A program made the translations under genes and the position numbers. Under the pieces are notes generated by a model. The model saw only the letters and a program-made list of their open reading frames with translations, was not told where the DNA came from and did no database searches. Positions 4,491-22,600 of a stretch of 51,959 nucleotides of DNA are shown one piece after another (position 1 is the first letter of the stretch; the number at the start of each line of letters is the position of its first letter). The stretch covers positions 1 through 51,959 of the forward strand of contig NZ_AZGE01000009.1 in assembly GCF_001434465.1 (NCBI RefSeq), written 5' to 3'. This stretch comes from Limosilactobacillus oris DSM 4864 (GTDB lineage: Bacteria; Bacillota; Bacilli; Lactobacillales; Lactobacillaceae).

Positions 4491-4612
4491 AAAAGAAGCT
4501 GCGGCAAGGAAATGCTGCAGCTTCTTTTCAGTATAAGTATTGAAACGCTTATAGTCCGGAATTTAAGGCTCCGGGTAGAAACTGCCGACCATATCTCGGC
4601 ATTATATAGGCT
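4491..4612 (-). promoter_or_regulatory. Guanine-class purine riboswitch with terminator
   Basis: On the minus strand an aptamer at 4546-4612 shows the hallmark order TATAATGCC, GATATGG, GTTTCTACC, then AAATTCCGGACTATAAGC, with P1 arms at both ends. The base that pairs with the ligand (in GGACTAT) is C, the guanine/xanthine/hypoxanthine class; adenine aptamers have U. It is followed by a terminator, AAGAAGCTGCAGC paired with GCCGCAGCTTCTTTT (4491-4526). Purine binding should end transcription before the permease gene. Confidence 0.95.
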
Positions 4613-4638
4613 ATTAATTTGCTTGTTCGATGTTAGTA

Positions 4639-14647: not shown

Positions 14648-15412
14648 TTAATCTTCAAAATAATGGTAGAGTTTTTCAACCGTTAATTCCTGCTTTTCCT
14701 GTCCGCAGAAGTCGGCCTTAATCTGCCCGTTTTGGAGGACAATCAGCCGGTTGCCGTAAGTAAGGGCGTCCTCTAGGTGGTGGGTAATCATCAGGGCGGT
14801 CAGGTGGTCGTGCGTAATCCGCTCGTTCGTTGCGTGGAGCAGGTTTAGACTGGTATGCGGGTCGAGGGCCGCCGTGTGTTCGTCCAGGAGGAGGATGTCG
14901 GGCCGCTTGAGGGTTGCCATCAGGAAGCTCAGGGCTTGTCGTTGTCCACCGGATAGGGCACCGGTCGCAGTCGTCATTCGCTTTTCCAGACCATTGTTCA
15001 TCGTTGCGGCCAGCTCTGTGAAGCGGGCGATGTTGGCCTTGAGCTTCCGGTGTACCAGGTGGCGGCGTTCACCACGTTTCGTGGCGAGCAGCATATTTTC
15101 GGCAACGGTCATCCGCGGGGCGGTACCGAGCTTGGGGTCCTGGAACACCCGGGCTAAAAAGGTCGTCCGCTGTTCCTCAGAACTCTTCGTGATGTCGGTG
15201 CCGTTGTGGAGAATCTGTCCTGCGTCGACGCTGAGGTTGCCGCCGATGACGTTAAAGAGGGTGGACTTGCCGGCCCCGTTTGTCCCGACGATGGTAATGA
15301 AGTCGCCTTCGTTAATGGCAAGGTTGATTCCCTTGAGGATCGTCGTTTCGTTGGCGGTTCCTTTATTAACGACGGTTTGCACGTTTTTTAATTCTAAAAT
15401 CGGCTTACTCAT
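14648..15412 (-). CDS. ABC importer ATPase, TrpXYZ type
   Basis: Cytoplasmic ATPase of 254 residues powering the importer formed with the two genes upstream. Walker A is GTNGAGKST (43-51), signature LSGGQRQAL, Walker B DILLLDEHTAALDP, and the switch His is in MITHHL. It overlaps the permease gene by eight bases, so translation is coupled. The set of ATPase, single permease and PF04392-type binding protein is the one annotated as a tryptophan (TrpXYZ) or uncharacterised ABC importer in Firmicutes; the Trp leader ahead of it supports tryptophan. Confidence 0.88.
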   Translation of the reverse strand: MSKPILELKNVQTVVNKGTANETTILKGINLAINEGDFITIVGTNGAGKSTLFNVIGGNLSVDAGQILHNGTDITKSSEEQRTTFLARVFQDPKLGTAPRMTVAENMLLATKRGERRHLVHRKLKANIARFTELAATMNNGLEKRMTTATGALSGGQRQALSFLMATLKRPDILLLDEHTAALDPHTSLNLLHATNERITHDHLTALMITHHLEDALTYGNRLIVLQNGQIKADFCGQEKQELTVEKLYHYFED

Positions 15413-16304
15413 GCGGACGTACTCCTTTCAAAATCGGCTTTTTCAGGTGGAGGTGCTGTTCAAGCTGCGGCAGCATCATGCAGATTGCCAGGACGACGGA
15501 CGAAATCAGGTTGAGGTCGTTAGCGGAGAAGCCGAGCTGGAGGACGACCAGCAGGATGATCCGGTAAATGATACTTCCGAGAGTCACCGCGACTAGCCGC
15601 TGGTTAAGTGTTAATTCGCCAAAGGCCACTTCGCCAATGATGATGGAGGCCAGGGCAATCACGATAGTCCCAATCCCCATGTTGATGTCGGCGTAGCCAT
15701 TATTTTGGGCAATCAGGGCGCCACAGAGGCCGACCATCCCGTTGGAAACCATTAGGCCAACGATGATCATCTTATCGGTGTGGATTCCCAGTGATTTCGC
15801 CATTGTTGGGTTGTCCCCAGTTGCGATGAAGGCCTGTCCGTAATCCGTAGCGAGGAAGAGGACCATCAAGATGGTGATAACGGCAATGATGATGATTCCC
15901 ATGACAACGCTGTCGAAGTACTGGGGCAGGCTGGTCATGAAGCGACCGTTAAAGAGGGTTGGCTTCCCCAGCAAAGAGATGTTCGACTTCCCCATGATTC
16001 GGAGGTTGACCGAATAGATGGCGGTCATCGTCAGAATTCCGGCAAGTAGACTGGGAATTTTCCCCTTCGTATAGAGGAGGCCGGTGACTAGGCCAGCCAG
16101 CATCCCGGCACCGATGGCGAGCAGGGTTGCCAGCAGGGGGTTAATACCGTGTGAAATTGCAGTGACCGCGGTGGCTGCGCCGAGGGGGAAGGTTCCCTCG
16201 ACGGTCATGTCACAGAAGTCGAGGATCCGGAAGGTGAGGTAGAGGCCGAGACCCAGGAGTGCCCATAAGAGTCCCTGCCCGATTGCTGATACCATTAGAT
16301 TCAT
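15405..16304 (-). CDS. ABC importer permease, TrpXYZ type
   Basis: Membrane permease of 299 residues with eight to ten hydrophobic segments. It resembles the BPD_transp_2 (branched-chain/ribose-type) permease fold: MNLMVSAIGQGLLWALLGLG at the start, EGTFPLGAA near 36-44 and IGEVAFGELTLNQR near 222-235. Its start overlaps the binding-protein stop by four bases (ATGA) and its end overlaps the ATPase, so the three genes are one tightly coupled operon. Substrate is inferred to be tryptophan from family and leader. Confidence 0.87.
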   Translation of the reverse strand: MNLMVSAIGQGLLWALLGLGLYLTFRILDFCDMTVEGTFPLGAATAVTAISHGINPLLATLLAIGAGMLAGLVTGLLYTKGKIPSLLAGILTMTAIYSVNLRIMGKSNISLLGKPTLFNGRFMTSLPQYFDSVVMGIIIIAVITILMVLFLATDYGQAFIATGDNPTMAKSLGIHTDKMIIVGLMVSNGMVGLCGALIAQNNGYADINMGIGTIVIALASIIIGEVAFGELTLNQRLVAVTLGSIIYRIILLVVLQLGFSANDLNLISSVVLAICMMLPQLEQHLHLKKPILKGVRPHE

Positions 16305-17290
16305 TGATAAATCTCTCCCTTCGTCTTGGCTTCGTGTTCAAATTGCTTGGGTATTTGGATGTGAAGCCGGCGGGCCTGCTTAAGGTTTAACACTGGGTCG
16401 CCATGCCGGACGTATTGGATTGGCATGTTCGCTGGCTTCTTCCCCTTGAGAATGGCGACGGTCATCTTGGCACCGCGGACGCCTAGCTGGTACTGGTTGA
16501 CACTGTATGTGGCGAGGCCGCCCTGCTTAACCATCGAGGCGGCCGCTGGGAAGACCGGCTTGTTGGCCGCGTTAGCATTCTTGACCAGTGTCTGCATAGC
16601 GCCGGCGATGGTGTTATCGGTTGGTACAACCACCGCATCGACTTCCTGGAGCATCTGCTCGGAGACCTGGTTGAGGTCGTTGCTGTTGGCGATTGAGTAG
16701 GACTTGAGCCGGATCCCCATCTTCTTGCATTCCTGCTGAATCTGCTGGTGACCAGCGACTGCTGAGGCGTCGCTGGAAGTATAAATTACCCCGAGAGTCT
16801 TGAGGTGGGGCATAAATTCCTTAACCAGGTTGAGCTGCTCCCTGATTGGCGACTGGTCGGAAACGCCGCTGATGTTGCCACCGGGGTGGCGGTTGTTCTT
16901 GACCAGGCCAGCCCCCTTCGGATCGGTGACGGCGCCTAGAACGATGGGAATCTTGCTGGTAGAGTTCGCCGCGGCTTGGGCGGCCGGCGTCGTAATGCTG
17001 TAAATAACGTTGCAGTTATCGTTAACTAGCTTGGACGCCATGGTTTTAAGGTTGCTCTGGTCACCGTTGGCGTTTTGGTATTCGATTTGAATATTTTTGC
17101 CGTCGTGGTAACCCTCCCTGGCTAGCTCATCGACGAATCCCTTATAGATTTGGTCGAGGGCGGGGTGGTGCATCAAGGTCAACACTCCCACTCGCGGGAC
17201 CCGCCGTTTGACCAACCCGCCATTTTCGCTAAAGAACGCGACACCGAGGAAGGCCAGTAGCAGGGCAATCAGGGTATACATTCGCTTCAT
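16301..17290 (-). CDS. ABC importer substrate-binding protein, TrpX-like (PF04392 type)
   Basis: Extracellular solute-binding protein of 329 residues. An N-terminal membrane anchor (4-20) has no lipobox Cys, so it is probably held as a signal anchor or cleaved. The body has the periplasmic-binding-protein type I fold, with RVGVLTLMHHPALDQIYKGF, VYSITTPAAQAAA-like and LGAVTDPKGAGLV segments typical of ABC_sub_bind proteins; many are called tryptophan-binding. The ATG start follows GGAAAGGTGTG. It is first in the operon, about 250 bases after the promoter, with two terminators in between. Confidence 0.88.
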   Translation of the reverse strand: MKRMYTLIALLLAFLGVAFFSENGGLVKRRVPRVGVLTLMHHPALDQIYKGFVDELAREGYHDGKNIQIEYQNANGDQSNLKTMASKLVNDNCNVIYSITTPAAQAAANSTSKIPIVLGAVTDPKGAGLVKNNRHPGGNISGVSDQSPIREQLNLVKEFMPHLKTLGVIYTSSDASAVAGHQQIQQECKKMGIRLKSYSIANSNDLNQVSEQMLQEVDAVVVPTDNTIAGAMQTLVKNANAANKPVFPAAASMVKQGGLATYSVNQYQLGVRGAKMTVAILKGKKPANMPIQYVRHGDPVLNLKQARRLHIQIPKQFEHEAKTKGEIYQ

Positions 17291-17311
17291 TAATCTTCAC
17301 ACCTTTCCAAA

Positions 17312-17347
17312 TAAAAACGGGAGCCCACATGACCTGGACTCCCGTTT
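17312..17347 (-). terminator. Leader terminator 2 of the tryptophan-type ABC operon
   Basis: Minus-strand hairpin with arms AAACGGGAG and CTCCCGTTT followed by TTATTT, ending about 22 bases before the first gene's ATG. Its loop CATGTGG is complementary to CCACATG in the 3' arm of terminator 1, so the two structures may be alternatives. Confidence 0.8.
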
Positions 17348-17356
17348 CGCTGGGCA

Positions 17357-17389
17357 AAATAAAAGTCCGCATGTGGATCCATGCGGACT
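17357..17389 (-). terminator. Leader terminator 1 of the tryptophan-type ABC operon
   Basis: Minus-strand hairpin AGTCCGCATG/CATGCGGACT around GATCCA, followed by TTTATTTT. It lies between the leader ORF and terminator 2. Being upstream of the structural genes and downstream of a short ORF, it fits transcription attenuation. Confidence 0.85.
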
Positions 17390-17462
17390 GAATGATTGCA
17401 AAATCAGCCGGCACAGATGCAATCTGCTTTTCAGGTTGCATCCATGACGAATCAACCTGAAA

Positions 17463-17513
17463 CTACCGGCTTTGCCAACGGTTAATTTGCTTGTTGAACT
17501 GATTTTGCTTCAT
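17463..17513 (-). CDS. Trp-codon leader peptide of the ABC importer operon
   Basis: A 16-residue ORF, MKQNQFNKQINRWQSR, begins eight bases after GGGAG and about 25 bases after the transcription start expected from the promoter. The single Trp codon is the fourth sense codon from the TAG stop. The codons after it (GCAAAGCCGG) can pair with CCGGCTGATTTTGC about 60 bases downstream (with a bulge), competing with hairpins there. A ribosome slowed at the Trp codon would change that folding before the two terminators. This is the layout of a ribosome-sensing attenuator. No family was recognised. Confidence 0.65.
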   Translation of the reverse strand: MKQNQFNKQINRWQSR

Positions 17514-17545
17514 TAAACTTACTCCCTTGTTAGTAATTGTTTTTT

Positions 17546-17574
17546 AGTATAGCTAAGCGGCCTGGCCCTGTCAA
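17546..17574 (-). promoter_or_regulatory. Promoter of the tryptophan-type ABC operon
   Basis: Consensus TTGACA (17569-17574), 17-base spacer and TATACT (17546-17551) on the minus strand. Such a strong promoter fits control by attenuation rather than by activation. Confidence 0.92.
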
Positions 17575-20888: not shown

Positions 20889-22268
20889 TTAATTTAACTC
20901 AGTACCTTCGTCGGTTGCATGTTGCCGGCGGAAGTGGTGGCAGACAAGCCCAACGGCCAGGCCTGCCAGCGCTGGTACGAGCCAGGAAAGACCCATGCTA
21001 GCAAGTGGCAGGGTGCTGCGCCAGCCGGCTACCACCTGTCCAAAGTGACTGGCACTGACGACTGCTGGAAAGGCAACTACCATATCGCCAAGTGCTGGAA
21101 CAACGGTGAACAGTACGACGAAGAAGTAGACAACCCCATCCCGGTGGAAGAGCGGCGAGCTGACCGATAGCAGGATTAGAACCATCGAGAGCGGGTAGAG
21201 GAACATTAGCATTGGCGTTGACCAGGCAATGATTTGATCCAGACCGAAGTTTGCTGTTAGAAATGAAGCGAGGCAGCTGAGGGCCAGCCAAGCGTGGTAG
21301 CTGACCTTAGGGAAGTGCTTGTGGAAGTCCTGGGCAAAGGCGGCCACCAGGCCTACCGCGGTGGTTAAACAAGTTACGGTCAGGAGAAAGGCAAGGACAA
21401 CCTGACCAAAGGCACCGGCATAGGCGTTGACCAACTGGTTAAAAGCGACCCCACCATCGGCGGAAACTTTAAACCGTCCCAGGGACATGGCGCCCATCAG
21501 GATTAAGAGCAGGTAGATCAGCCCGATGCCGCTTACCGCAAGGACCCCGGACTTAGCGACTACCCTGGAAACATCCTTGGCCTGGCGCTGACCCATCGAA
21601 CGAACAGCGGTAACGACGGTGACCCCAAAGGCGAGGCCGGCGAGGGCGTCCATCGTGTTATAACCCTCCAAGAAACCGTTGGTGACGGCATTGTGGACGT
21701 AGGCACTGGTAACCGGTGCACTAGCGGGGTTCCCCAGCGGATTGGCAAAGGCCACGACAAAGACGAGGAAGAGGAGCGCCAAAAAGACGGGGTTTAGGAC
21801 CTTGCCGACGTTAGCCAGGATCTGGTTTTCCTTGTAGGAGAAGAGAAAGGCGGCTAAGAAGAAAAGCGCCGAGAAGAGGAGCAGTGCCCAGCCCTGAGCA
21901 ACTTTTGGCAGGAACGGGGCGACCCCAACGGTAAAGGAGACGGTTGCAGTCCGCGGGGTTCCAAAGAGGGGACCAATCGTGGCGTGAATCAATACCATGA
22001 AGACGAGGGCAAAGGCCGGCCCGAGCGGCAGGCCGATGTCATAGACCCCTTCGGCCCGGGTAACGGCGACGGCGAGGACCGATAGTAGCGGCAGCAAGAC
22101 CCCGGTTACTAAGAAGCCCAGGGCGGCCGGAGCCCAGTTGGCCCCGGCCAGCTGACCGAGGTGCAGGGGGAAAATCAAGTTTCCGGCACCGAAGAAGAGC
22201 CCGAACAATAGTGAGGCAACGATCAAATATTGCTTGAATGATAAACGAGGTGATGTTAAATCACGCAT
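20889..22268 (-). CDS. brnQ: Branched-chain amino acid:cation symporter
   Basis: LIVCS-family transporter of 459 residues with twelve hydrophobic segments, taking up isoleucine, leucine and valine with Na+ or H+. The N-terminal LLFGLFFGAGNLIFPLHLGQ is the family signature, and the GPLFGTPRTATVSF segment (about 108-121) is also conserved. CTAGGAGGGATTTACC precedes the ATG. It forms a single-gene unit behind a T-box; that leader's likely Ile codon fits the function. Confidence 0.95.
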   Translation of the reverse strand: MRDLTSPRLSFKQYLIVASLLFGLFFGAGNLIFPLHLGQLAGANWAPAALGFLVTGVLLPLLSVLAVAVTRAEGVYDIGLPLGPAFALVFMVLIHATIGPLFGTPRTATVSFTVGVAPFLPKVAQGWALLLFSALFFLAAFLFSYKENQILANVGKVLNPVFLALLFLVFVVAFANPLGNPASAPVTSAYVHNAVTNGFLEGYNTMDALAGLAFGVTVVTAVRSMGQRQAKDVSRVVAKSGVLAVSGIGLIYLLLILMGAMSLGRFKVSADGGVAFNQLVNAYAGAFGQVVLAFLLTVTCLTTAVGLVAAFAQDFHKHFPKVSYHAWLALSCLASFLTANFGLDQIIAWSTPMLMFLYPLSMVLILLSVSSPLFHRDGVVYFFVVLFTVVPALGDMVVAFPAVVSASHFGQVVAGWRSTLPLASMGLSWLVPALAGLAVGLVCHHFRRQHATDEGTELN

Positions 22269-22314: not shown

Positions 22315-22600
22315 TAAAAAAGTCCCTTAACCAACTTACATTGGTTAAGGGACGCCGTGGCGTGGTACCACCCTTTATTCAGGCCGTTCTCCGGCCTCTT
22401 CACGTACGGCTAATAAGCGATACGCTGACACGATAATGGGTGTACCCACCTAATCTTACTGGATTTTAAGATTAGGACTCGAAAGTGATTTTCAGTCGAA
22501 TGTTAACCGATCCCCTCACACCTCACGGGACTCGCTGCCGGTAACAGACAACCTACTCTTCTTTCTCATTGCGATCAGATAATTAAAATGTTGCTTATTA
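22315..22600 (-). promoter_or_regulatory. T-box riboswitch of brnQ, probably isoleucine
   Basis: Minus strand T-box GGGTGGTACCACGCC (22359-22373) precedes a terminator, GTCCCTTAACCA paired with TTGGTTAAGGGAC and a U-run (22315-22353). In stem I, CTGAAAATCACTTTC offers ATC followed by A as the specifier, the isoleucine codon. Upstream on the same strand a TTGACA -35 lies at about 22622-22627 with AT-rich -10 candidates near 22600-22607. Low Ile-tRNA charging should turn on uptake. Confidence 0.93.

Follow-up and report, generated by a model that had tools for sequence, protein, structure and literature searches.

The trpX locus and its leader

The window, meaning the whole 51,959-nt stretch of Limosilactobacillus oris DSM 4864 DNA that was analysed, carries on its minus strand a leader extending from position 17574 to 17314, followed by an importer operon. 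The operon begins with trpX (16301-17290, -), encoding the binding protein of a tryptophan ABC importer, and continues with the genes for the permease (BPD_transp_2; 15405-16304, -) and the ATPase (14648-15412, -). An importer of the tryptophan type had been proposed at this place from the letters of the DNA alone (hereafter the sequence-only reading), and this was borne out: the product of trpX, whose start lies at 17290, passes the cutoff of the NCBIfam TrpX equivalog (457.8 versus 390 bits). Its best match among solved structures is S. pneumoniae 3lft, which corresponds to SP1069 with tryptophan bound (PMC6816091).

A promoter scan located a -35 box TTGACA (17569-17574, -) and a -10 box TATACT (17546-17551, -) separated by 17 nt. 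The consensus promoter claimed earlier is therefore present, with 11 of 12 consensus matches, but is weak evidence by itself because shuffles of the region yield on average 0.8 sites this good. Downstream, a Shine-Dalgarno sequence (AAGGGAG, 17522-17528, -) precedes a 16-codon ORF kept in homologues, MKQNQFNKQINRWQSR* (17463-17513, -), with its ATG at 17513, its only Trp codon at 17477-17475 and a TAG stop at 17465-17463; the short ORF with a ribosome site and a Trp codon near its end was thus found as described. The final codons and the stop form strand A (AGCCGGUA, 17464-17471, -), which can establish 8 pairs with UGCCGGCU within strand 3, in agreement with the pairing foreseen for the codons after Trp, and which shows weaker covariation in relatives. 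Strand 1 (UUCAGGUUG, 17453-17461, -) can pair with strand 2 (GGAUGCAACCUGA, 17431-17443, -), forming a helix that covaries in relatives, and strand 2 may instead pair with strand 3 (GCAGAUUGCAUCUGUGCCGGCUGAU, 17403-17427, -), the putative antiterminator, whose possible partners are A, 2 and 4. Strand 4 (UUCAGUCCGCAUGGA, 17378-17392, -) holds the 5' arm of terminator 1 (T1, helix 4:5; 17364-17389, -). The strand 5 region (17353-17377, -), made up of the T1 loop, 3' arm and tail, can pair with the strand 6 region (17324-17351, -), the 5' part of terminator 2 (T2; 17314-17348, -). The predicted energy of this duplex is -26.4 kcal/mol, and that of the T2 fold is -22.8 kcal/mol. The competing hairpins and tandem terminators of the sequence-only reading were in this way recovered, including the pairing of CCACATG in T1 with CATGTGG in T2, which lies within the duplex just mentioned.

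The 256-nt leader as a whole folds at -95.2 kcal/mol compared with -62.7 kcal/mol for shuffled sequences (z -6.9, exceeding 200 of 200 shuffles). Part of the 5' region of the ORF, GCAAAAUCAG (17498-17507, -), is perfectly complementary to CUGAUUUUGC (17397-17406, -), just past strand 3, and in the folding model this pairing competes with the antiterminator.

Relationship to the trpB motif

In an Rfam search at relaxed threshold, positions 17448-17355 (-) of the leader matched RF04312, the "trpB motif", with 47.1 bits (E 1.4e-5). The alignment runs over the full model (positions 1-107) and places the P1 hairpin ahead of the terminator. Since the score stays under the curated cutoff of 59 bits, which is surpassed by copies of the same genus (86.6 bits in genome G045 and 60.1 bits in G005), the window copy is regarded as homologous to RF04312 yet not as a curated member. 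At the strongest match (locus L056, same genus, 86.6 bits), the leader is directly followed by a reverse-transcriptase ORF that by eye resembles a group II intron, and not by the importer.

The trpB motif was published in 2024 as an orphan and was rated a strong candidate for a riboswitch; it has over 900 representatives, from Firmicutes and Fusobacteria, and is most often followed by the gene of an uncharacterised amino-acid-type ABC transporter (Narunsky 2024, PMC11109978). Its describers did not exclude an attenuator as alternative. In the accessible text of that paper the term "leader peptide" does not occur and no ORF is given for the trpB motif, uORFs being discussed for other motifs. 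A literature search conducted with most subscription papers out of reach found the term trpB motif only in PMC11109978, and no publication linking it to a peptide. The published motif and the window leader have in common the P1 hairpin, the antiterminator in the right shoulder of P1, the terminator and a location ahead of trpB or of an ABC importer of the amino-acid type. To this the present analysis adds the ORF with its codons, strands A and 1, and the second terminator.

Conservation of the leader peptide

The RF04312 model starts 3' of the ORF, meaning that the finding of homologues is blind to the peptide. The view that ribosome-sensing leaders are less common than T-boxes in Firmicutes, put forward in the sequence-only reading, agrees with the literature, although the trpB-motif family is widespread, with 211 of 395 sampled genomes of the window's order matching RF04312 at E<=0.001 (59 above the cutoff). 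A search of 398 genomes across the phylum returned 25 places at E<=0.01, distributed over 23 of them.

The leaders of 146 RF04312 matches were read, comprising those among the matches listed and a few from the phylum search, with an ORF caller that scores only the start codon and the Shine-Dalgarno sequence. In 141 of them the best Shine-Dalgarno-preceded ORF had a Trp codon among its final 12 codons, and hand re-reading of two loci where the caller had taken another start (L123, L165) raised the number to 143; the remaining three are two leaders with Phe/Tyr runs (L032, L055) and a false match (L186). The Trp ORF of L165, from a fragmented genome, contains no ATG, GTG or TTG and would start at ATT. 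The other phylum-search places read, besides the window and L031, L032 and L055, were L034, L035 and L036, where no such leader was found.

The loci were also approached from the protein. Among 80 named TrpX loci, 70 possess, as called by machine, a Shine-Dalgarno-preceded ORF that has Trp among its final 7 codons, compared with 2 of 80 on the opposite strand; three more have a Trp ORF on relaxed reading, and no leader was found at the other seven (L370, which is Paucilactobacillus oligofermentans, L375, L377, L380, L398, L409 and L414). Examples of such peptides are MNAYQAINVNTRWQSR in L. reuteri, MNFQAMVKESWQFK in L. delbrueckii and MQLSSIELNGRWQSR in L. brevis. Because the ORF and its Trp codon recur in homologues found independently, by RNA and by TrpX protein, their presence in the window goes beyond chance. 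Loss of the ORF or of its Trp codon from related leaders had been named as the observation that would speak against a peptide-coding Trp attenuator before trpXYZ; the ORF is instead kept at the large majority of TrpX loci, and the homologue comparison upholds the proposal. One Trp leader, MHQVFKLQLQLNTRWQSH* at L144, precedes an oligopeptide-type binding protein (SBP_bac_5).

Alternative helices

Pairing was evaluated in 12 Lactobacillaceae, 70 other Lactobacillales and 13 representatives of family f137, a set that leaves aside the false match L186, the intron-bearing L056 and three loci with no called P1 or terminator (L191, L207, L222). Helices 1:2, 2:3, 3:4 and A:3 were stronger than 95% of their own shuffles in 12, 12, 12 and 10 of the Lactobacillaceae, in 56, 70, 54 and 54 of the other Lactobacillales and in 13, 13, 13 and 10 of the f137 representatives, respectively. 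On a 69-sequence alignment, the combination 1:2 + 3:4 was 85.6% paired, with 96 double-changed cells against 30.4 in shuffles, and the opposing combination 2:3 + 4:5 was 96.6% paired, with 80 against 17.8; the observed double changes were reached by 0 of 500 shuffles for either combination. Covariation was concentrated in 1:2 (10 of 13 pairs), P1 and the terminator, and was lower in 3:4 (3 of 10 pairs), where, in Lactobacillaceae, exchanging the native partner for one from a different species leaves the pairing equally strong (-16.4 exchanged, -16.3 native). Helix A:3 was 84.0% paired on the same alignment, a result matched by 22 and 50 of 500 shuffles on two measures, and sliding it by +2 gave more double changes than the native register.

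Of the 95 representatives, 77 had a second terminator call within 75 nt, a presence count made without shuffle control. The pairing of strand 5 with strand 6 exceeded 95% of shuffles in 11 of 12 Lactobacillaceae, 32 of 55 other Lactobacillales and 8 of 10 f137 members, the window having the strongest such pairing among the 12 Lactobacillaceae. As in attenuators, mutually exclusive helices are predicted at an intrinsic terminator.

Codon identity and downstream genes

Outside the Trp leaders, this scaffold is combined with codons for Tyr, Phe, Leu or His, other families presenting runs such as HHHH, LLLLANLR, YYYSYYR and FFFSFFR. A model built free of the ORF matched 68 of 194 genomes of family f137 and 39 of 60 of f196, and only 11 of 371 genomes drawn across the class. 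Codon type was compared with the downstream gene at 319 loci, 24 of which remained unassigned and from which L294 had been dropped as a duplicate. Typing was permissive: it assigned 300 of 319 loci, but also 79 of 319 opposite strands, 71 of 317 regions displaced by +700 nt and 343 of 1595 shuffled sequences.

His codons were found before hisS (17 of 17), before hisZ-like genes (14 of 14; hisZ is the best model, with a score under its cutoff) and before SBP_bac_3 genes (6 of 6), whose family matches leave the substrate unsettled. One clade of NSS transporters was preceded exclusively by Leu leaders (13 of 13), the remaining NSS proteins having 18 Tyr, 18 Phe and 3 untyped leaders; the three codon types can be accounted for by 4 changes on a tree of 45 NSS proteins, against 20.5 when shuffled, and the Leu group forms one side of a branch with 100/100 support. 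Leaders were of the Trp type at trpB (6 of 6) and at TrpX-type binding proteins (140 Trp, 7 Phe, 1 Tyr), and of the Tyr/Phe type at aroE (6 Tyr, 1 Phe). BrnQ leaders were divided into 9 Tyr, 3 Phe, 5 equal and 1 Trp, and permease-first operons into 10 Tyr, 10 Phe, 1 equal and 4 untyped. As these loci share ancestry, the counts do not represent independent events. Several synonymous codons are in use within the Leu and His runs.

The assignment of Tyr versus Phe is generally less sharp than that of Trp, His or Leu. For example, FFSSQFS* precedes the operon of a CD0876-like protein which retains the Tyr-contacting Glu, making the Phe reading of this leader unsure. Two leaders of TrpP-type transporters (L235, L240; NWQRYYCMYGF*) contain one Trp and three Tyr codons and, having been typed once as Trp and once as Tyr, are left without an assignment. 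Two leader types were found by machine in 42 of 238 genomes, although in two of these (G000, G691) they rest on chance matches. Second, weak matches in families f2 and f137 were typed "none" at L211, L218, L224, L241, L247, L248, L253, L254, L259, L260 and L263, and five machine-typed loci (L210, L220, L242, L255, L261) look like chance ORFs. The second match to the ORF-free model in the window's own genome (L295, E 0.04) has no Shine-Dalgarno-preceded ORF. In the sequences compared, the candidate regulatory codons fit the regulated pathway, with Trp before trpX and swaps elsewhere.

A further correspondence was found in the binding proteins themselves. Gln-284 of SP1069 contacts tryptophan, whereas the Tyr-binding CD0873 and the Phe-binding VC_1101 have Tyr in its place (PMC6816091). 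In the alignment, Gln occupies this position in each of the 139 binding proteins encoded after Trp leaders, that of the window among them, and Tyr occupies it in all 10 encoded after Tyr/Phe leaders; the window was counted once, the short proteins of L121 and L134 were set aside and L165 was moved by hand from Phe to Trp. Genome G1392 has two tandem importer operons, one of them with a YYYYYSHYF leader, whose protein differs at 9 of 317 residues, counted by eye, from the CD0873 structure, which was solved with Tyr bound. In C. difficile, uptake of Tyr and Phe falls when the neighbouring transporter genes are lost (PMC5951980). Two tandem importer operons with near-identical permeases are present also at L458, with Phe-type and Tyr-type leaders and three binding proteins; a typed pattern run against this locus gave no match.

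Proposed mechanism

Taken together, the comparison makes it very likely that the window leader is a ribosome-read transcription attenuator in which stalling at the codons of a scarce amino acid leads to antitermination. A ribosome would translate the 16-codon ORF while RNA polymerase produces the downstream strands. A ribosome covers about 12 nt downstream of the A-site codon. When charged tRNA-Trp is scarce, the ribosome would halt with the Trp codon in its A site and, given this footprint, would cover strand A and not strand 1, which could then pair with strand 2. Formation of 1:2 would leave strand 3 free for strand 4, blocking T1, and the freed strand 5 could pair with the 5' part of T2, so that trpXYZ would be transcribed in starvation. 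With plentiful Trp, a ribosome at the stop codon would cover strand 1, and 2:3, 4:5 and both terminators would form.

In folding models of these ribosome positions, the 3:4 pairing before completion of the terminator had medians of 0.58 and 0.59 with a stalled ribosome, 0.19 with a ribosome at the stop and 0.36 without ribosome. Masking at the codon rather than at the stop raised 3:4 by more than 0.2 in 85 of 173 leaders and shifted it in the reverse direction in one; the shift was below 0.2 in 87, and absent in the few Leu and His leaders modelled. In the equilibrium model of the window leader, 3:4 is nearly missing from every state (5e-4 with the ribosome stalled, 2e-5 with it at the stop codon). 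On stalling, 2:3 (-38.7) gives way to 1:2 (-42.1), and the full ON fold, when forced, attains only -37.1 because the 5' region of the ORF pairs with the stretch after strand 3. Since the full ON fold is not the minimum, the final step of the switch rests here on analogy. Two further points count against stalling: the window ORF has only one Trp codon, and where a leader has two, a ribosome halted at the first of them would not cover strand A.

The sequence-only reading had offered two mechanisms, stalling at Trp and a TnaC-like arrest, of which the first gains support from the swapping of codons to other amino acids suiting the downstream gene. In the second, free Trp would hold the ribosome near the stop and read-through would occur when Trp is high. 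The single Trp codon of the window ORF and the proximity of its stop to the pairing strands would suit such a scheme, and a ribosome held at the stop would cover strand A as well. TnaC-type arrest needs conserved residues in the nascent peptide. Neither these nor a fixed Trp-to-stop spacing was found among 131 distinct Trp peptides, whose similarity at positions -8 to -16 is at background (about 0.1) and whose Trp lies 3 to 10 codons from the stop; the lack of conservation before Trp argues against an arrest peptide and for the reading of tRNA charge. In addition, the scaffold takes His, Leu, Tyr and Phe codons, a modelled ribosome at the stop favours termination, and the importer and trpB would be induced by their own substrate or product, all of which renders Trp-induced arrest very improbable.

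A slightly lower probability still is given to a metabolite riboswitch, for which the motif was considered a strong candidate with the attenuator caveat attached (PMC11109978). An ORF is present in every genuine RF04312 match read and its codons track the downstream gene. Inspection of the 69-sequence alignment showed hairpin loops varying in length and sequence and seven invariant columns all located in pairing strands, and therefore no conserved unpaired pocket was seen in this alignment. Least likely of all is a protein-dependent attenuator, operated for instance by a TRAP-like regulator with the ORF being coincidental, since terminator and antiterminator strands alone would suit a protein switch but gene-tracking codon swaps and synonymous variation within the runs would have no role in it.

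Known systems and wider meaning

The E. coli trp and his attenuators combine a leader peptide carrying regulatory codons with mutually exclusive helices that end in a terminator. The stalling attenuator proposed here shares the leader peptide, the regulatory codons and the helix chain with them, a likeness in layout and not based on sequence, and differs in employing one scaffold for five amino acids, one or two Trp codons beside the stop and tandem terminators. Among Firmicutes, leader attenuators with His runs are documented before hisS, hisZ and his operons, including in Peptostreptococcaceae such as C. difficile, and the accessible accounts report them as His-only, with no link to the trpB motif or to Trp, Tyr, Phe or Leu versions (PMC2965389, PMC9413887). 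The S. aureus ilv operon, with its Leu-rich attenuator peptide, is likewise a case of Firmicute leader-peptide attenuation, in a different operon (PMC5794164). A precedent for a riboswitch candidate later recognised as a uORF attenuator is the ilvB-II motif, found only in Corynebacterium and using Ile/Leu/Val codons (PMC10272879, PMC11109978).

The trpB motif probably constitutes a single superfamily of homologous, modular attenuators in Lactobacillales and clostridia, a seven-strand relay with two coupled terminators. Its scaffold would be kept while the codon tract changes between Trp, Tyr, Phe, Leu and His, so that the peptide would spell the downstream amino acid and predict the substrates of unannotated transporters. 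As far as these searches show, three features are new: the trpB-motif peptide, the exchange of codons on a common scaffold and the coupling to a second terminator. This reading would give a riboswitch candidate that was left unexplained in 2024 a concrete explanation open to testing, and would make ribosome-read attenuation, with a sensor that can be re-coded, a frequent alternative to the T-box in Firmicutes. It would also provide an annotation rule, suggested by the Gln/Tyr pocket residue and the CD0873 case, by which the substrate of a transporter is read from the codon run in front of it.

The same gene family and amino acid can be served by another device, as in Streptococcus suis, where trpX is preceded by a T-box, a tRNA-binding RNA without peptide (PMC9382623). 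A T-box was ruled out as the identity of the trpX leader studied here, where RF00230 has no match. The sole T-box of the window (RF00230, 101.1 bits; 22345-22578, -) lies ahead of a BrnQ-type transporter (20889-22268), and both a T-box and a leader peptide appear to be in use for the amino-acid transport genes of this stretch. The window also contains a purine riboswitch (RF00167, 70.7 bits; 4532-4629, -).
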